DNA from: a virus
Length of the DNA stretch: 50,664 bases
Virus record (IMG/VR): IMGVR_UViG_3300035698_002915
Span: 1 to 50,664 of that record
Strand: one strand, 5' to 3'
Below the pieces are notes generated by a model. The model was given only the letters and a program-made list of their open reading frames with translations. It ran no database searches and was not told the DNA's origin. Below are positions 11,226 through 50,501 of this stretch, in pieces (position 1 is the first letter of the stretch; each line of letters starts with the position of its first letter). Made by a program: the position numbers and the translations under genes.

Positions 11226-11978
11226 TTATGGTGCAGGTGCGTAGTCGTTAAGATCGAATGCTTCGCTACCAGAATCGGCAGTGAAGGGTTGTGCTTTGCT
11301 GGTAGCCTTCTTTTTAAGGTTACCAAAAATCATGTCTACCGCAGCAAACGCTTGGTCTTCGTTAGCACCGCCGTCAATCGCTTTTTGCAAGTGATCACGT
11401 ACCGTACCTTTGTGCGCCGCGTAGTCAGGATGCTGGGCTAAGAAGTTATCCCAGACTTTGTCGCTGGTATTCATATTACCAACTTGTTGCATAACGCGAG
11501 CTTCTGTTTGGCTAATGATCTCAGGGATGAGATCCAACACAGACGTTAGCGCGCGTTCCACTGCTTTGTTCGCCGTAGTACCCATAGCATCAACGATACC
11601 AGACAAGTCGCCGTTTTGCAACTTCTCGCCGATATCAGCCAGGTCAACGCCTTCGGTAATGGAATCCCCTTTGAAGCTCTGCATAAGCTGCGTTACAACT
11701 GCGTTAGCCTTTGGAGTACCGTCGGCGTTAGTGTCTGCGGTAGCTGTCGTTTGCGGTTGCGTACCGTTACCTTGCGATTGGTCCCCGCTAGAGTTTTGAT
11801 TATCACCGATTACAACGCCGCTTGTCAACTGGTGAACCAGTGTTTCAATGTTGTCATTTGGGTTGGTATTATTTGTGTTACCATCGGTATTCGTTGCAGA
11901 GGCGTTTCCAGTGTTATTGCTGGCGTCTCCTGCTGGTGTTGCGAAGATGTTACCGCCGGGTGTTGATGATGCAGACAT
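11226..11978 (-). CDS. Capsid scaffolding protein (putative)
   Basis: A 250-residue protein with a low-complexity N-terminus rich in Asn, Thr, Gly and Gln, a helical middle, and an acidic C-terminus (LNDYAPAP). It lies between portal and major capsid protein, the standard place for a scaffold in podoviruses, and its helical, polar composition fits. There is no protease domain. A ribosome site (AAGGAA) is eight bases before the ATG. The call rests mainly on synteny and composition. Confidence 0.65.
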   Translation of the reverse strand: MSASSTPGGNIFATPAGDASNNTGNASATNTDGNTNNTNPNDNIETLVHQLTSGVVIGDNQNSSGDQSQGNGTQPQTTATADTNADGTPKANAVVTQLMQSFKGDSITEGVDLADIGEKLQNGDLSGIVDAMGTTANKAVERALTSVLDLIPEIISQTEARVMQQVGNMNTSDKVWDNFLAQHPDYAAHKGTVRDHLQKAIDGGANEDQAFAAVDMIFGNLKKKATSKAQPFTADSGSEAFDLNDYAPAP

Positions 11979-12043
11979 AGCTTAGTTCCTTGTAGGCTGT
12001 GTTTAATTGAGGTAGTGTTGGGTGTTCTTATATAACAATTTAT

Positions 12044-12181
12044 CACGTGGAGCCTTCGAGATAAGTTGACAGGCAAGCTACCATCGGTCGGGTAAACCCT
12101 ACGGTCAGATCTGCGATCTGTCCTTGCGTCCATCCTTATCCCGATAGTAGTAAACCCGTAAACCCACCTCTTATCCCCGCG
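12044..12181 (+). ncRNA. Repeated structured element, copy 1 (family of at least five)
   Basis: Lies in the portal-scaffold gap, opposite in sense to the late mRNA. It opens with CACGTGGA (12044-12051), followed by the shared GGAGCCTTCG block, and closes with CCCACCT and TCCCCGCG (12174-12181), which pairs six of eight bases with the start. An inner stem joins CGAGATAAG (12057-12065) to CTTATCCCG (12135-12143), nine pairs with one G-U. Within it are the hairpin GGG-TAAA-CCC (12090-12099) and the hairpin CAGATC-TGC-GATCTG (12106-12120), which has the family's three-base loop. Which strand is the functional RNA is not known; the type is my inference. Confidence 0.6.
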
Positions 12182-12196
12182 AAAATTCTTATCGGG

Positions 12197-14341
12197 TTAG
12201 CGTGCGGGCTGTTGCGGGGCTGTACCTCCTTCTTGCCCTTCTTGCTCTGCCATGACCTGCTGTAACAACTGATAGGCCATGTTCTTTTCTTCTTGACCTA
12301 ACGCATCAAACGGTGTCTTGTACTTGAACGCGCCTAGGTCGATGTGTGCGCCTTCCATCTTCAACAAGTAACCAGTCATAGCCACGAGGTCAATCTGTTG
12401 CTGTATCTCCCGCGATTGGAAGCCGTACTGCAATAGCGTCTGCAAACGGTCAGCAATAGCAATAGTATCAATCCCACGTAGTCCATCGCTAACAGCAATG
12501 TCTAGTTCGAGGTTCTCAAATACCGTTGGGTCAATCGAGGTTACTTCCCCGTTACCGTCAAAGATACTGATAGCCTTCTGGTAGTTGATAATGTCTTGCG
12601 TGTGCATGAAAGAACTAGGCTCTACCAGTTCCTCATGAATAATCCGAGCTAGAACAAACACAGGCAAGTTCTGCTGTTGTGATACTGAACGCGATTGGTG
12701 CGTTACTGGGCGGTTCAAGTTAGCCAACGCGTCAACAGAGTTCGTCGGGAACACGTCTTGCATCTTAGCTTGAATGTGCTGGTCGGCCAGTAACGGGGCG
12801 TTGTTAACAGGATGCCCTTGAACGTTATGGATCAACTGCGAGATATGACGCTTCTCGTCCATGCTAGCAGCATCAACGCCAATGTGTCCAGAGCTAGGGT
12901 CAGCCATTTGATCAAGACTGATACGGGACTTATCGTAATACGTAACGCCTTTGTTTTTGTCACTGCGCGCTTGCTTCATAAAGATGTTCATCAAAGAAGA
13001 GCTAGCTTCTTGGAACGGCATCAGTAATTCAGCGATAGACAAGCTCAGTGTCTTGCTAAGCTCTGTCTTAGGACGCGTAATATTGCAAGGCAGCAACCCG
13101 TGTGATAGCGCGTCAGGCTGTGCGTATACGATATCATTGCCGTTAAGAATCTTAAAGCGCCAGATTTCCAGCATACCAGCATCGCCTGCAACACGACCAC
13201 CCGCACCAGCAGGTAGCCCAAAGTCAGCAGGATCAATGCGGATAGTTATCGTCAACAACTCGTTCGCAGCGTTAGCTTTTTCGTTAAGTGTGCTTGATCC
13301 GCTGTTAACGTATCTTTTCAGGTCAAAAGCACTGTCATTCTCAGGCACTTCGTTGTCGTTCGTGACCTTAGATAGCTGAGTTCGGAAGTCTGGACGGTGT
13401 GTATACAGCCCGACGGTAGCCCCATTGGCAATACCGAAGCGTTGTCCACGTTTACCAGCGTAGAAGTTGTTCTTGTTACCTGATAACGTCGGCTTACCCT
13501 GATCCACAACATACGTCCGTAGCGCGTCACGCATTTCCTTTGGTAGCAGAATCTCGCCACGTTCGCCCATACGGATAAGGTCAAACTCAGAGTGCATGTC
13601 AACTGTAGCATAGAACTGCGCGTCCATTGCATAGTCTTCGGTGTTAACGTTTGTATCAAGGATCGTGTTAAACAAATCCAAGTGGCGAATTTGTGTACCT
13701 TCTTTGATAACGGCACCACGCGTATTCGACGACATGTCCTGCGGGTTAGGGCGGACTTTACCACGGATACCAGTCACAGTCTTCCATGCGACTTCGTTGA
13801 TACCAAGGTTATAGGCGATAGCGTCGTGAATGATCCGGTAGTAATTGGTGTAGTGCTTGAACTGCTTTGCGTGAACGTTCATAACTTCTACAAACGCGCC
13901 AGTCTCTTTCTGCTTCTCAGGGTTAACTTCAACAGAACCGTACATCTGGCGGGCAGGGAATAGCACGTTCATCACGTTAACAGTAATGTCGTTAACATGT
14001 CCCAGTGTCTTTGGGTAGCGCAAGTCGCTAACGAAGTCGCTTTCACCTTTGGCGTAAGAAATCTCACGTTGCTTCTCTGCCCCAGAGTTTGCAGTAGCAG
14101 CGGCCATGTTGTAAAGCACGTTGGAGTAGTTAACAGTCCGGTTTTGATGCTCACAAACAGCGGGTGCTATCTTGGTCATTAAAGCATCAAGGATATCACC
14201 TACCTTCTTCTTTGTGACTTTCTTACCACCAAGATAGTAGTTGTCATCTTCGGTGATCCCAAACGCACTGTGGCCGTGTCCAATAACAGCCTTAGTGGTT
14301 ACTGGGTACGCGTTGTTCTTTTTCTTAGTACGACGTGCCAT
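12197..14341 (-). CDS. Portal protein, podovirus type
   Basis: A 714-residue protein directly after the large terminase (three-base gap), with a length close to the 725-residue P22 portal. It begins with a basic segment, then a mixed helical region. Segments typical of the portal core include the FPARQMYGSVEVNP and NYYRIIHDAIAYNLGINEVAWK region (residues about 125-190). It ends in a Gln/Glu-rich helical barrel-like tail (MAYQLLQQVMAEQEGQEG). It forms the dodecameric packaging and tail-attachment ring. I rely on order, length and these segments. Confidence 0.8.
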   Translation of the reverse strand: MARRTKKKNNAYPVTTKAVIGHGHSAFGITEDDNYYLGGKKVTKKKVGDILDALMTKIAPAVCEHQNRTVNYSNVLYNMAAATANSGAEKQREISYAKGESDFVSDLRYPKTLGHVNDITVNVMNVLFPARQMYGSVEVNPEKQKETGAFVEVMNVHAKQFKHYTNYYRIIHDAIAYNLGINEVAWKTVTGIRGKVRPNPQDMSSNTRGAVIKEGTQIRHLDLFNTILDTNVNTEDYAMDAQFYATVDMHSEFDLIRMGERGEILLPKEMRDALRTYVVDQGKPTLSGNKNNFYAGKRGQRFGIANGATVGLYTHRPDFRTQLSKVTNDNEVPENDSAFDLKRYVNSGSSTLNEKANAANELLTITIRIDPADFGLPAGAGGRVAGDAGMLEIWRFKILNGNDIVYAQPDALSHGLLPCNITRPKTELSKTLSLSIAELLMPFQEASSSLMNIFMKQARSDKNKGVTYYDKSRISLDQMADPSSGHIGVDAASMDEKRHISQLIHNVQGHPVNNAPLLADQHIQAKMQDVFPTNSVDALANLNRPVTHQSRSVSQQQNLPVFVLARIIHEELVEPSSFMHTQDIINYQKAISIFDGNGEVTSIDPTVFENLELDIAVSDGLRGIDTIAIADRLQTLLQYGFQSREIQQQIDLVAMTGYLLKMEGAHIDLGAFKYKTPFDALGQEEKNMAYQLLQQVMAEQEGQEGGTAPQQPAR

Positions 14342-16720: not shown

Positions 16721-16794
16721 GCTAACGTCGTATCTCCAGCGTGATAGTAAAACTCAAAAAACCAACACACTGTCTACCGAGATACGACGTTAGC
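16721..16794 (-). promoter_or_regulatory. 16-bp perfect inverted repeat in the late-operon leader
   Basis: GCTAACGTCGTATCTC (16721-16736) is repeated in perfect inversion as GAGATACGACGTTAGC (16779-16794), with a 42-base loop containing T-runs on the late mRNA. The structure ends about 25 bases before the terminase start. It could be an operator at the DNA level or a leader stem-loop controlling the first late genes. Confidence 0.7.
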
Positions 16795-17148
16795 GACTTC
16801 GCCCGAAGCCGTGAGGAAGCTAGGACAGGCACCCTGCTCAACCTCACTCTTAGACACTACTCTGAACAGTAACACCCCACAACCCCTTAAATTACATTTT
16901 GCTAATTTATTTTTAAAACCCACCTCCCACACCCAAATTCCCCTCGCGCGTGTATAGTAGTCACTAACCCAAACCCTAGCACCTCTCTTTTTTTGTATAC
17001 CCTACCACCTCCCAATACCTCTCTCCCTATTCTCACATGCTAGCATACTACTATCAATCCCGTTATTGTATATTTTATTAGTATTTTTCGGGGGTAGTCT
17101 TTATATAGAACCCGCACCTCTGCACTCTTGGGGGAAGCATACCCCTTT

Positions 17149-24045: not shown

Positions 24046-24411
24046 ATGGTTAATAAGATAGCTGGCATGAACCGCCCGTTAATAGGTGAAGTGCGTTTAG
24101 TCCGTGCTTTGAAAGATGCTCCCAAGAGCGAGGTAGCAGGGTTTATCTGGTACGTTAAGCAGTGCGTTGATAACAAAAGTTATAACGTAGGCTGGAAAAC
24201 GCTAGGGCGCTACGATGATAAAGAGGTCGCGATCAGACACGTTAGTTTATTGAACGGGCAGGAGCAAAATCCTGTTAAGGTAAAAGGAACAGCGCTGCAA
24301 GAGCTTTCCAAAGTTTCTTTTAAGCTGTCCGTTATCAGAGACTCTAACGTCCACAAAGTACGCCGACGGGCTAAAAGCAGTATCGAATGGATTCCTGAAT
24401 TGGAGTTCTAG
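24046..24411 (+). CDS. Small basic protein, 121 aa, unknown function
   Basis: Unknown. A basic, alpha/beta protein ending in an acidic-hydrophobic tail (WIPELEF), which echoes the C-terminus of the 274-residue early protein (ITSLDF). It is the last gene before the structured element at 24419. It uses a TAG stop. Confidence 0.6.
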   Translation: MVNKIAGMNRPLIGEVRLVRALKDAPKSEVAGFIWYVKQCVDNKSYNVGWKTLGRYDDKEVAIRHVSLLNGQEQNPVKVKGTALQELSKVSFKLSVIRDSNVHKVRRRAKSSIEWIPELEF

Positions 24412-24418
24412 CGGCTTT

Positions 24419-24558
24419 CGTGTGGAATGTGGTAGCGATTGACTTGTATTTCGCGGTGAGACAAGGGTGGCCAAAGGCAAGCCCGTAGGGTTTGTCGCAG
24501 GCTGTAAGCCGATCACCTCGAAACTTGAAGTCAATTGTTAACGCAAAGGTTCCACGCG
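24419..24558 (-). ncRNA. Repeated structured element, copy 2
   Basis: Best aligned with the other copies when read on the minus strand, opposite to the flanking genes. The closing stem joins CGTGTGGAA (24419-24427, plus strand) to TTCCACGCG (24550-24558), eight of nine pairs. An inner stem joins ATTGACTT (24438-24445) to AAGTCAAT (24528-24535), extended by TTTCG/CGAAA and GGTGA/TCACC. Inside are the hairpin GGCTGTAAGCC (24500-24510) and a CCC-GTA-GGG hairpin (24482-24490), the family's three-base-loop arm. Sequence outside the stems matches the copy at 49680-49809 closely. Functional strand unknown. Confidence 0.65.
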
Positions 24559-24627
24559 TAAAGACCAGCGGTAACATAAACTAACACATTAACTAAACAA
24601 AGTTCTACCACCCTGTAAATTAGATAT

Positions 24628-24701: not shown

Positions 24702-24956
24702 ATGTCAAAAACGATAACAAGCACCATTCATTACATAGGAGGCGCAGTTACCGTCGATATCTCTGACACGTCCGAAGGGTTCTTTCATCGCGTCAATGAT
24801 AACGTCGCCAAGCTAACTGGCGAATGGTCAGGCTACGAATTTATTTCTGGTATCGGTAACTATGCCCATTGCACAGAATATTTCGCTGGCGTGCTACCAA
24901 CAGAAACTTTGTTTGCCGTTAAAGCCTACGAAGCAACCCCCGCCCAACAGGGCTAA
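24702..24956 (+). CDS. Small protein upstream of the amidase, 84 aa
   Basis: Unknown. It looks like a beta-rich small protein (alternating Thr/Val/Ile), ending in a Pro/Gln tail. It lies 15 bases before the amidase gene and probably shares its mRNA, so a role linked to lysis or to the amidase is possible but unproven. Confidence 0.55.
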   Translation: MSKTITSTIHYIGGAVTVDISDTSEGFFHRVNDNVAKLTGEWSGYEFISGIGNYAHCTEYFAGVLPTETLFAVKAYEATPAQQG

Positions 24957-35557: not shown

Positions 35558-35652
35558 CCAAGTTCAGACAACACCATTGCACTGGGCGGTATGAGGGTAA
35601 AACCTTGTGCTGCCCTTTCGCAGTAGGAACCTTACGAACAAAATGAACTTGG
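35558..35652 (+). promoter_or_regulatory. Leader structure overlapping the nucleotide kinase ribosome site
   Basis: CCAAGTTCA (35558-35566) pairs with TGAACTTGG (35644-35652), nine perfect pairs. The last two G of the 3' arm are part of the GGAG ribosome site (35651-35654) of the kinase gene. Inside, GCAC-T-GGGC (35579-35587) can pair with GTGC-T-GCCC (35607-35615) in crossed order, i.e. a possible pseudoknot, and GGTTCC/GGAACC offers an alternative fold. This suggests regulated translation, perhaps riboswitch-like. Confidence 0.5.
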
Positions 35653-37715: not shown

Positions 37716-38196
37716 CGATATCCCTATGCAGACTTACAATGACGCATGGACGCTAGAAGAAGTTGACATGTCAATGAACGTGGACGGGGTACTCCATACC
37801 TCTGATAAGCTACGTGCTTCGCTAACAGTCATTCACCAGAGTAACGTTAAGGCTACCATCTACAAAAGAGTGAACTCTGTCGTTGATCTGATGAATAGAT
37901 TAGCGGCTAAGGCCCGTGATGAAACGCCGTCAGGGCAGGATTTATACCACACAATTCTAGTATCACCGCACACACACATGATGATGCTTATGGTATTCCC
38001 AGGATTGCCTTCTCTGAGTGTCGCTGGTGTTAGCATCCGACCAACGATTATATTTGGCGGAGAGATAGCCCGCGTCCAGTATGCGCTGGTAACTAATAGC
38101 GTAGTAGCCAGCCTTGAAACTGCTGGGTTTATGTGTGATGTTATCGCACCCGCTTGGTTCGGCGGACAATCACTGGCAATAACGGACCAATCGTAA
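37705..38196 (+). CDS. Small protein after the DUF3987-like ATPase, 163 aa
   Basis: Unknown. I place the start at ATG 37705, eleven codons into a longer frame; AGGAAAG lies some 12 bases upstream. It is a mixed alpha/beta protein with a hydrophobic central stretch (residues about 91-117, MMMLMVFPGLPSLSV..IRPTIIFGG), which could be a buried strand-helix or a membrane-associated segment. Its start overlaps the ATPase gene end by 11 bases, so it may be a partner. Confidence 0.55.
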   Translation: MDINDIPMQTYNDAWTLEEVDMSMNVDGVLHTSDKLRASLTVIHQSNVKATIYKRVNSVVDLMNRLAAKARDETPSGQDLYHTILVSPHTHMMMLMVFPGLPSLSVAGVSIRPTIIFGGEIARVQYALVTNSVVASLETAGFMCDVIAPAWFGGQSLAITDQS

Positions 38197-38199
38197 ATC

Positions 38200-38336
38200 A
38201 CGCGGAACCTTTGTGCTAGAACTGGACACCAAGTTTAGTCGCAGAAGGTTTACAACCTGCGGGAAGCCTACGGCTACCCTTCGGTCCACCTTTGTTCTGC
38301 GACAAAATCCGCGTCAAGCACTACCACCTTTCCACA
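38200..38336 (+). ncRNA. Repeated structured element, copy 3
   Basis: Same strand as the flanking genes, unlike the other copies. It starts ACGCGGAACCTTTG and ends CTACCACCTTTCCAC, with GGAA (38204-38207) pairing TTCC (38330-38333) and GTGCT (38213-38217) pairing AGCAC (38317-38321). Inner stem TCGCAGAA (38239-38246) with TTCTGCGA (38295-38302) is perfect. Inside are the hairpin GGT-TTACA-ACC (38247-38257) and hairpin AGCC-TAC-GGCT (38265-38275), flanked by GGG/CCC. An alternative stem ACGCGGA/TCCGCGT can also close it, hinting at two folds. Functional strand unknown. Confidence 0.65.
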
Positions 38337-38364
38337 TTATTTAGCTAACATAAGGAGATAAGCA

Positions 38365-38622
38365 ATGTCTGAGTTAGGACTTGTTACCATGATCGAGTTT
38401 AAAGAGACACCCAAGGCACACGGTTGTGTTAAACCTGACGACTGGGTAGCATACTGTGAGGCTACACCCAGTGAAGAAAAGCGTTATCAGTACTGGATAC
38501 CTAAGTCACAAATCAGCGGGTTAGAGCAGGAGTTCAGTGAAGAGTACGCGGCATTCACTATCACGTTCTTAGCCCCACTCTGGTTGCTTGATCGTAACGC
38601 CATCCCGTACACGCCAAGCTAA
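38365..38622 (+). CDS. Small protein, 85 aa, unknown function
   Basis: Unknown. A GGAGAT ribosome site precedes the ATG. The product is acidic with Trp and Tyr (KPDDWVAYCEAT..YQYWIPKSQ) and a hydrophobic stretch at the C-terminal side. It lies between element copy 3 and the exonuclease gene. No recognised domain. Confidence 0.55.
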   Translation: MSELGLVTMIEFKETPKAHGCVKPDDWVAYCEATPSEEKRYQYWIPKSQISGLEQEFSEEYAAFTITFLAPLWLLDRNAIPYTPS

Positions 38623-38635
38623 CTGGAGAATTACC

Positions 38636-39172
38636 ATGAAAAACGAACAAGTAATACAAGCCTACGTCGATATCGAAACAGTCGGCACTGAGGCTGGCGC
38701 TGGCATCTGGGAGGTTGGGGCGTTAATTACTAACAACAATACTGGCGACCAGTTTCAAGTTAGCACGCTTTGTATTCCGCAAGGTCGCGTATGTTCGGAG
38801 ACTATCAAGTGGCTAAAAGAAAAACCAGCCGTCTGGAACCGCTATGAGCTAGCATTAGAAAGCGGTGTAACGCAGACGGAAGCGTTAGAACACCTTGCTT
38901 TGCAAATACAAAAAGCAGGTGGTATCCAATGCCGCGCTACTGAAAGCTTTTATTCATGGGGTACGTTTGATTTCCCGATACTAAAAGAAGCGTACAGCCG
39001 TTTACTACGAGGTAAGACCCCTTGGCACTACGGTAGCGAATGTGATCTGCGTAGCGTAGCTAAGTTTCTGAACACCGACATTCGGCCAGACACTAGCAGC
39101 CACGAAGCCTATAAAGATGCAGTAGCTTTACGCACAGCCCACTACCAAATGCTTGATGCTATCGACACCTAA
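38636..39172 (+). CDS. DnaQ-like 3'-5' exonuclease (DEDDh type)
   Basis: A 178-residue exonuclease of the RNase H/DnaQ fold, similar to phage DexA/DUF5051 types. The start at ATG 38636 has GGAGAATT upstream. Motif I DIET has D12 and E14, motif II WGTFDF has D112, and motif III HEAYKDA has H156 and D161, so the DEDDh set is complete. It likely degrades ssDNA or trims ends during replication, and is the last gene of the rightward block. Confidence 0.8.
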   Translation: MKNEQVIQAYVDIETVGTEAGAGIWEVGALITNNNTGDQFQVSTLCIPQGRVCSETIKWLKEKPAVWNRYELALESGVTQTEALEHLALQIQKAGGIQCRATESFYSWGTFDFPILKEAYSRLLRGKTPWHYGSECDLRSVAKFLNTDIRPDTSSHEAYKDAVALRTAHYQMLDAIDT

Positions 39173-39203
39173 GAACGTGGTCGCTAACAACATAAGATAT
39201 TTT

Positions 39204-39341
39204 TGGGCGGGATAAGGTGGGCGTTTACTCACGGATTGTATGTCGGAACAAGCAGACGATAGGATGCGCAGAGCGCTTCCGTTAGCGTTAGCGACCGACA
39301 TTCAACTTGGTTAGTCAACATTCACCGAAGGCTCCCGCCCA
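39204..39341 (-). ncRNA. Repeated structured element, copy 4, at the convergence of the two blocks
   Basis: Closing stem TGGGCGGGA (39204-39212) with TCCCGCCCA (39333-39341), nine perfect pairs, extended by T/A runs. Inner stem ATGTCGG (39240-39246) with CCGACAT (39295-39301). On the minus strand it begins GGGAGCCTTCGG, carries CCAAGTT and GCTAACGCTAACG blocks, and a hairpin GCGC-AGA-GCGC (plus 39266-39276) with a three-base loop. It aligns well with copies 1 and 5. Lying between the ends of the two blocks, it may also act as a two-way terminator, although no U-tract is seen. Confidence 0.65.
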
Positions 39342-39354
39342 TAAAAAATCGTTA

Positions 39355-49139: not shown

Positions 49140-49640
49140 TTACTTTATGTTAAAATTGTAGTCGGGTTTGAACAAGTTGTCAACAAAGGTAATGTTAGCC
49201 ATACCCTGTAATTTAGAGTCTTTGTTGCGTAGTAACGTCATCATTTCCGCAGGGTCTTCAAAAGGGCTGGAGAACATTGTAAAGAAAGGTTTATCACCAG
49301 ACTTAAATTCAATCGGAGCTAACGGACGAATGTTGTTTGCTCTTAACACAGCAGTAGAAGGTGAGAACATGCCCCAGCATAAGACTGCTAACGGTTGCAT
49401 TAAAGGTTCGCCGTTTTGCTGGCCAACTTGACGCGCAGCAACAGAGTAGAACCCGTGCATGACAGAGCAATAAATATCGTTAATAACGTTAGAGAAAGGT
49501 GCGTCGCGGAAACGTTGATCGAAGCTTAATAGAAAAGAGATAGTTCCGATAGCTTCTTTTGTTGTGTTAAAGGTAACTGGGTTAACTTCGTCATACCAGC
49601 TAGGTTTTGCATTCGAGTTGCTAGAGCCTTGAAATTCCAT
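49140..49640 (-). CDS. Putative virion protein, 166 aa
   Basis: Unknown. The start is placed at ATG 49638-49640, with AAGGAA seven bases upstream. A longer frame (to 49754) would read through the structured element, so I reject it. The product is alpha/beta with an NVINDIYCSVMHGF segment. It is the first gene after the junction-side terminator and precedes the internal virion proteins. Confidence 0.6.
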   Translation of the reverse strand: MEFQGSSNSNAKPSWYDEVNPVTFNTTKEAIGTISFLLSFDQRFRDAPFSNVINDIYCSVMHGFYSVAARQVGQQNGEPLMQPLAVLCWGMFSPSTAVLRANNIRPLAPIEFKSGDKPFFTMFSSPFEDPAEMMTLLRNKDSKLQGMANITFVDNLFKPDYNFNIK

Positions 49641-49679
49641 GGTTGTGTTCCTTAGTTGTGTATCATTCGTATTTTGCGC

Positions 49680-49809
49680 TTGGAACCTTGTACTAACAGT
49701 TGACTTCAAGTTCTGGACCAGACGGCTAACGCCTACGCCGAAGCTACGCTTCAACTACGTCTCACCTTTATCTGCCCCCGAATACAAGTCAACCGCTAGC
49801 CCTTTCCAA
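49680..49809 (+). ncRNA. Repeated structured element, copy 5
   Basis: Located in the gap before the 166-aa gene, opposite in sense to the late mRNA. Closing stem TTGGAA (49680-49685) with TTCCAA (49804-49809). Inner stem GTTGACTT (49699-49706) with AAGTCAAC (49786-49793), perfect. Inside: CGGC-TAAC-GCC hairpin region (49723-49733) and the hairpin GAAGC-TAC-GCTTC (49740-49752), five pairs with a three-base loop. Shares TTGACTTCAAGTT and ACAAGTCAA with copy 2, although the two are about 25 kb apart. Functional strand unknown. Confidence 0.65.
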
Positions 49810-49813
49810 ACAA

Positions 49814-49857
49814 AAATAGCTACCCTATCATTACAACAGGATAGCTATCAGTTTAAA
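49814..49857 (-). terminator. Rho-independent terminator
   Basis: On the minus strand, ATAGCTA arms (outer pairs) and a CTATC/GATAG-type inner pairing form a stem with a roughly ten-base loop, followed by TTTTTG. It lies just downstream of the 194-aa gene, within the late operon, so it probably reduces rather than stops read-through into the internal virion genes. Confidence 0.6.
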
Positions 49858-49869
49858 ACTTACTGCGTG

Positions 49870-50454
49870 TTAGCAGGTTGGATCAGGCAAAGGCCCAGAA
49901 GCGTACGTCAACGCACCAGCATAGGCAGAAGGCGGACCTGCTACCCAGTAATGGTTGTTGCTGTCAATGACAGGCTGTGTCGCAGAACATACCGCATATA
50001 CATTCCAGCCGTTAATGCCAGACCCAGCTTGAGCGCCAGCAGGGTGTACGTTAGGGTTCAGACTACCTGTGCCCAGTACACCAATCTGTTGGAAGTTGTC
50101 ACCAAAGTTGATACCAGCCGCCGTTTGACCAGCTTCGTTAATTTTTGAGAACAGCGTCCAAACTGGAAGTCGGTTGTTACCACCCGAATTACCATCATCA
50201 CCGTCAGCGGCAGCGTCAAGCAAATCATACAGTGGGCCGAAATTAGTACCAGGTGCAAACAACGGGAAATGCGCAGCACCACCACAAGTTTTACCATCGT
50301 GAACAGCACCACGCATGTTACCTGCGCAAACCAAAAACGACAGAGCGCCGTGTGGTAGGACAGCGTTGTTAAAGCTGTTTGGATTACGAAACATTGCGTT
50401 CCGATGCGACTTGTTTGCGCCGCGAGCGGGATTACCGCCAGTAAAGTTAGACAT
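49870..50454 (-). CDS. Putative virion protein, 194 aa
   Basis: Start set at ATG 50452-50454 with GGAGTG six bases upstream; a GTG three codons earlier overlaps that ribosome site. The product is Gly/Asn/Ala-rich, with a C-terminal Cys and no recognised domain. The composition fits a capsid decoration, tail or spike protein. It is followed by a terminator, which may make its expression distinct from the downstream genes. Confidence 0.55.
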   Translation of the reverse strand: MSNFTGGNPARGANKSHRNAMFRNPNSFNNAVLPHGALSFLVCAGNMRGAVHDGKTCGGAAHFPLFAPGTNFGPLYDLLDAAADGDDGNSGGNNRLPVWTLFSKINEAGQTAAGINFGDNFQQIGVLGTGSLNPNVHPAGAQAGSGINGWNVYAVCSATQPVIDSNNHYWVAGPPSAYAGALTYASGPLPDPTC

Positions 50455-50501
50455 AGCTAACACTCCATTTAGGGACAGGGTAGAAAAAGCACGGTGTCCC
50501 G

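Follow-up and report, generated by a model that had tools for sequence, protein, structure and literature searches.

In phage T7, polycistronic mRNA is processed at RNase III sites, which are stems in the gaps between co-directional genes and occur several times per genome. The put RNA of phage HK022 is about 70 nt long, consists of two stem-loops and lies downstream of the early promoters (PMC9378689); it is a protein-free, nascent structured RNA present in two copies in its phage (PMC9378689). Its activity, the suppression of termination and pausing, works through the beta' zinc-binding domain. Furthermore, the manA and wcaG motifs are candidate structured RNAs that comparative genomics has placed in cyanophage 5' UTRs (PMC2864571).

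Here we describe an RNA element of approximately 150 nt that occurs five times in the window, by which we mean the whole stretch of DNA analysed, 50,664 bases of the tailed phage record IMGVR_UViG_3300035698_002915 of IMG/VR. Much like the T7 RNase III sites, it places stems between co-directional genes, multiple times per genome, but the T7 sites are far shorter and simpler, as the element is a rod of about 45 bp with a conserved bulge, an internal loop and a two-hairpin tip, and three of its copies are reversed. Like the put RNA it is structured, found in more than one copy per phage and in untranslated leaders, and may act in cis (PMC9378689), yet it is a rod with a branched tip rather than some 70 nt of two adjacent stem-loops, and it has no upstream promoter signal. 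Like manA and wcaG, it was detected through covariation and lies in possible 5' UTRs of phage genes; it differs from them in its many copies per genome, its varied downstream genes and the lack of any Rfam 15 match reaching the gathering score.

Results

The window carries genes for a terminase, a major head protein, a DNA polymerase, a primase and a helicase, and its DNA polymerase and terminase are only about 25% identical to those of the nearest isolated phages (Polaromonas phage Tiera, Aeromonas P5, EBPR podovirus 3 and PaP2). The original prediction had described a pair of small hairpins repeated five times, in which a three-base loop closes the second. All five triloop hairpins occur at the places and with the letters given:

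12106: triloop hairpin CAGATC-TGC-GATCTG
24482, minus sense: triloop hairpin CCC-TAC-GGG
38265: triloop hairpin AGCC-TAC-GGCT
39266, minus sense: triloop hairpin GCGC-TCT-GCGC
49740: triloop hairpin GAAGC-TAC-GCTTC

Each is preceded by the other small hairpin (GGT-TTACA-ACC, GGC-TTACA-GCC, GGC-TAAC-GCC and GGG-TAAA-CCC), which is reduced to GC-TAAC-GC in the copy at 39266. The hairpin pair is thus real, but it forms part of a larger element, and the strand that folds is the reverse complement of the one on which it was written. On that earlier strand the extent first aligned was about 136 bases, starting with GGARCCTT and ending with TTCC or TCCC. The five copies, with the strand of the folding RNA, are as follows:

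12032-12192, minus strand: copy c12; stop codon of gene 12197-14341 16 nt before, ATG of gene 11226-11978, which precedes the major head protein gene, 65 nt after
24415-24563, plus strand: copy c24; stop codon of gene 24046-24411 8 nt before, ATG of gene 24702-24956 143 nt after
38194-38343, minus strand: copy c38; RNA strand reversed relative to both flanking plus-strand genes; contains the originally predicted 38247-38275 as its P5/P6 tip
39193-39354, plus strand: copy c39; in a convergent gap, 33 nt past the stop codon of gene 38588-39172
49670-49818, minus strand: copy c49; between gene 49870-50463 and the HlyC-like gene 49140-49640, whose ATG lies 36 nt downstream

A covariance model (R1) search found these five places in the window and none elsewhere there, with scores of 72-94 bits and the next match at an E value of 0.3; R1 was built from these five, so that the high scores follow by construction and it is the absence of further places that is informative. 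An apparent sixth copy, a GGAACCTT site at 35626, was rejected as it has neither the fold nor an R1 match. Two of the neighbouring genes deserve mention in their own right. Gene 38588-39172, between c38 and c39, is 3'-5' exoribonuclease-like (Rv2179c-like, PF16473), and gene 49140-49640 resembles HlyC of the RTX toxin acyltransferase family (PF02794; its 24.9 bits narrowly miss the cut-off of 25); the latter lies in the phage structural region and has orthologues in the same place in both relatives described below.

Nine further copies came from two relatives in IMG/VR. G002 (IMGVR_UViG_3300001202_000003, 51,356 bases) is colinear with the window in gene order, with protein identities of about 30-70%, and carries five copies (g9, g23, g35, g48 and g49), the first of which was found by a sequence pattern for the terminal motifs. 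With filters off, R1 matches four of them, at 43, 32, 28 and 18 bits; the remaining copy was located as a GGAACCTT site and by eye. A second pattern led to G003 (IMGVR_UViG_3300009073_000006, 54,180 bases), the second colinear relative, with four copies (h1, h18, h29 and h45). The comparison therefore covers 14 copies from three phages, all uncultured, and most of the nine copies in the relatives were first detected by short terminal sequence motifs and not by structure. R1 had no match in Tiera, Aeromonas P5, EBPR podovirus 3, PaP2 or a Desulfofustis phage, nor in a further IMG/VR relative (L002/G001). Pattern scans of viral contigs gave many matches in other phages that were rejected as false, all being without the fold, and one scan of bacterial and archaeal genomes with a strict pattern returned no copies.

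The strand first written is not the one that folds; its reverse complement is. This reverse-complement strand folds better in 14 of 14 copies, with a summed energy of -806 compared to -637 kcal/mol (for c49, -60.6 compared to -31.0). To guard against bias, both arms of each copy were also aligned with their flanks in a strand-neutral way, counting only Watson-Crick matches. On the reverse-complement strand the mismatches comprised 38 G.U and 4 A.C (p about 3e-8, a value that overstates independence because copies at the same site are related, although the direction is clear), and the arm positions over the 14 copies gave 560 Watson-Crick and 38 G.U pairs of 685. This surplus of G.U over A.C points to selection on RNA.

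On this strand the element forms a rod of about 45 bp whose tip combines a purine-rich strand, itself conserved, with the small hairpins P5 and P6. The AU-rich outer helix P0, revealed by the strand-neutral alignment, changes its letters in concert (g23 AUAAUUAUU/AAUAAUUAU, h29 AAGUU/AACUU, c24 CUUU/AAAG). Next come the GC-rich P1, whose inner end reads GGA/UCC, a bulge on the 3' strand with the conserved letters AAGG, a P2/P3 helix of 14-18 bp containing GUCAA, and a GNA/CUUG internal loop in 11 of the 14 copies, the exceptions being a three-copy subfamily of G002. P4 has 10-12 pairs with a one-by-one mismatch, or 5-6 pairs in that subfamily, and past it come a strand resembling AARRGUGRNCCGNAGG, then P6, CGYAG and P5 before the return to P4. 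In c38 the inner features are:

38222-38227, minus strand: 3' strand of P3, paired with 38313-38318; GTCCAG on the RNA strand, family consensus GTCAA
38234-38244, minus strand: 3' strand of P4 with its one-by-one mismatch; partner strand approximately 38297-38307
38247-38257, minus strand: P5 small hairpin, GGTT-GTA-AACC on the RNA strand; GGC-GUUA-GCC type elsewhere
38265-38275, minus strand: P6 triloop hairpin, AGCC-GUA-GGCU on the RNA strand

The stem of P6 is paired in all 14 copies (79 of 79 cells) and its loop varies: the caps are GUA, GUA, GUA, AGA and GCA in the window, GUA, CUUG, GCCA, GUCA and CUUG in G002, and GCA, GCAA, GUA and AUC in G003. The three-base loop, originally taken as the conserved feature, does not hold across the family, in which GNRA-like or CUUG caps can take the place of GNA triloops, and the P6 loops look like interchangeable stable caps. 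P5 is likewise paired in 14 of 14 copies (42 of 42 cells). In many minimum-energy folds the purine-rich strand pairs with P5 instead, an arrangement that we did not adopt because P5 is paired in every copy; the modelled folds leave room for a possible switch between the two pairings.

Covariation was assessed first for the five window cores, which were pinned at TTGAC...GTMAA and aligned with plain MAFFT, not fitted to the structure, and scored on a four-helix structure. Here 88% of pair cells were paired compared to 69.5% after shuffling, 15 of 27 pairs showed a double change (shuffle mean 7.5), and the covariation score was 0.57 compared to 0.21, reached by none of 500 shuffles; sliding the partners by 1-3 columns destroyed the signal. 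For all 14 copies a hand structural alignment was used because MAFFT misaligns P4 in full-length copies. As this alignment is fitted to the structure, its counts were checked against shuffles and against pairing across copies. In P3-P6, 94% of 345 cells are paired (64% in shuffles) and 22 of 31 pairs are double-changed (14.6 in shuffles), with 99 double-change cells compared to 26, which none of 2000 shuffles attained. The counts on a model-fitted alignment are in agreement (20 of 27 pairs; 97 double-change cells compared to 25.5), the 14 rows of that alignment including one spurious wrong-strand match, which was counted, and lacking g35. P4 covaries most freely of all helices, with double changes at 12 of 12 positions, and its arms pair at 93% within a copy compared to 47% between copies; for P6 these values are 100% and 59%.

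Homologues that break the stems, which would have spoken against the predicted selection on structure, were sought, and all nine new copies keep the stems with changed letters. It is near certain that the structure is real, and selection for it is supported: the letters differ greatly while the fold is kept, so it is the shape that evolution preserves. The G002 copies g35, g48 and g49 form a subfamily, being 42-59% alike compared to mostly 20-40% with the others, which indicates that copying or conversion within a genome happens.

With respect to gene context, 10 of the 14 copies are flanked by a pair of co-directional genes, to both of which their RNA strand is sense. In all ten a start codon follows 24-143 nt downstream, in most cases with a ribosome-binding-like AAGGA or AGGAG ahead of the ATG, and in nine the upstream stop codon is 7-62 nt before; in g48 it is 239 nt away, with g49 intervening. 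G002:C1:48890-49202 holds g48 and g49 back to back in opposite orientation within this one intergenic gap. Copy c39 has one gene upstream and a convergent gene at its end, and c38, g49 and h45 are antisense to both neighbours. Counted by independent site, five are sense and three reversed, a bias that is not significant. Some copies belong to late units (head, HlyC-like, lysis), others to the early operon, and the downstream genes, which include the one preceding the major head protein gene, the HlyC-like acyltransferase gene and a small gene before the endolysin gene, are varied and mutually unrelated. Two sites are common to all three phages (c12/g9/h1 and c49/g23/h18) and two to a pair of them (c24/g48 and c39/h29); c38, g35, g49 and h45 are lineage-specific. 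At shared sites the identity of the element falls to 34-59% with the structure intact, in phages with protein identities of about 30-70%.

Comparison with known families marks this well-supported RNA family as new, previously undescribed and absent from Rfam. None of the 4227 families of Rfam 15 matched the window at gathering score, and with E values up to 10 the 14 copies gave only SNORD48, in one copy, on the wrong strand and at 15 bits compared to a gathering score of 36. Literature searches found no description of such an element. A tRNA identity was rejected, none being found, and so was a terminator, as there is no U run past the 3' end. The sigma-70 promoter signal is no higher than in shuffles on either side of the element (upstream score 7.86 compared to 7.76, where the host's own promoters may differ from the sigma-70 type), and a promoter element was rejected on this ground.

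Discussion

A long duplex that is free in sequence but fixed in its bulges, set between co-directional genes, is best matched by a module for mRNA processing or stability. Our tentative preference, held at somewhat less than an even chance, is that the element is a new intercistronic module of mRNA that acts in cis, probably as a site of processing or stability. Each copy would be carried inside phage transcripts as a folded RNA of about 150 nt, shortly after a stop codon and before the ribosome-binding site that follows, and would act in cis within the polycistronic mRNA; the missing promoter signal on either side fits an element embedded in longer transcripts. Most likely it would serve double-strand-dependent processing and stability, with a putative cut of the host RNase III type leaving structured ends, while the conserved bulge, loop and tip would position the cut or bind a protein, and expression of the adjacent genes may be affected. 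The roughly two turns of double-stranded RNA on a transcribed strand typical of an RNase III site are provided by the 14-18 pairs of P2/P3 together with P1 and P4, and helices with free letters and fixed geometry are as expected of recognition by duplex shape. Two observations speak against this reading: c38, g49 and h45 are antisense to both neighbours yet keep the fold, and a simple RNase III site would not require anything as elaborate as the conserved bulge, internal loop and purine-rich tip strand.

The reversed copies, together with an orientation by site of only 5:3, keep alive the possibility that the copies are independent trans-acting noncoding RNAs, for example a decoy titrating a host RNA-binding protein or ribonuclease, either cut from longer transcripts or expressed alone. 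Several copies would raise the dose, and the four to five copies per genome, the conserved elaborate tip and the retention of the reverse-complement fold in all three reversed copies are consistent with this. However, neither an upstream promoter signal nor a terminator-like U run past the 3' end is seen; the snug intercistronic fit with ribosome-binding sites downstream also argues against it, and we consider it doubtful. It is possible, though not what we would expect, that the elements make up a new class of phage RNA that has its own activity: they would either recruit a protein and control transcription elongation in cis, or act in trans as a decoy made from many loci, with four to five copies per genome that diverge in sequence and resemble each other in structure.

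Less probable still is a cis antiterminator or anti-pausing leader that, by analogy to put, would load onto host RNA polymerase where transcription units begin. The put RNA is a protein-free, nascent structured cis element occurring twice in its phage (PMC9378689), the element sits in several leaders of one phage, and at the c49 site a terminator-like hairpin with a U run lies immediately upstream in the window and in G003. But put, with its two stem-loops in about 70 nt, follows early promoters (PMC9378689), whereas the element is twice as long, rod-like and set within gene series, and one copy ends at a convergent junction.

A DNA-level role is improbable, whether a cruciform or single-strand hairpin were used as a primosome site, for recombination or, like the hairpins of N4, as a promoter. 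The near-perfect inverted arms rank among the top ones in each genome and occur in multiple copies and both orientations, and C-G closes the triloops. Yet on one strand G.U outnumbers A.C by 38 to 4, and the same strand bears the GNRA- and CUUG-type caps, both of which point to selection on RNA; promoter-like sequence is absent, and the three-base loop that an N4-type promoter hairpin would have is not kept in the relatives. No RNA polymerase family was seen among the scanned proteins, many of which had no family match at all. An integron attC site was rejected by sequence inspection, as the core boxes are oriented incorrectly and the structure is one of RNA. A non-autonomous repeat, mobile or selfish and of no use to the phage, is very improbable, for despite copies on both strands and the within-genome copying or conversion seen in the g35/g48/g49 subfamily, the same sites are kept in three diverged phages with the structure intact, unlike decaying insertions, and no associated transposase was seen among the scanned proteins.

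The 14 copies amount to a natural covariation experiment, in which one fold is kept at fixed intercistronic sites with nearly free sequence. The consensus, strand and placement given here make the partitioning of polycistronic mRNA in these phages testable. Furthermore, comparing G.U with A.C counts can reverse the strand first assigned to a hairpin family.

Other inverted repeats are present in these genomes. At 16721-16797 of the window, where the leftward gene set is separated from the rightward one, a loop of about 45 nt is enclosed by a perfect inverted repeat of 16 bp, GCTAACGTCGTATCTC...GAGATACGACGTTAGC, which differs in sequence type from the RNA element. A large AT-rich inverted repeat, with a score above shuffles, lies near the same divergent region in the second relative (G003:C1:47323-47492). 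At 2752-2837 of the window a long inverted repeat, TTATCTTCTATGCAAT.../...ATTGCATAGAAGATAA, is followed by a GGAGGC/GCCTCC hairpin.
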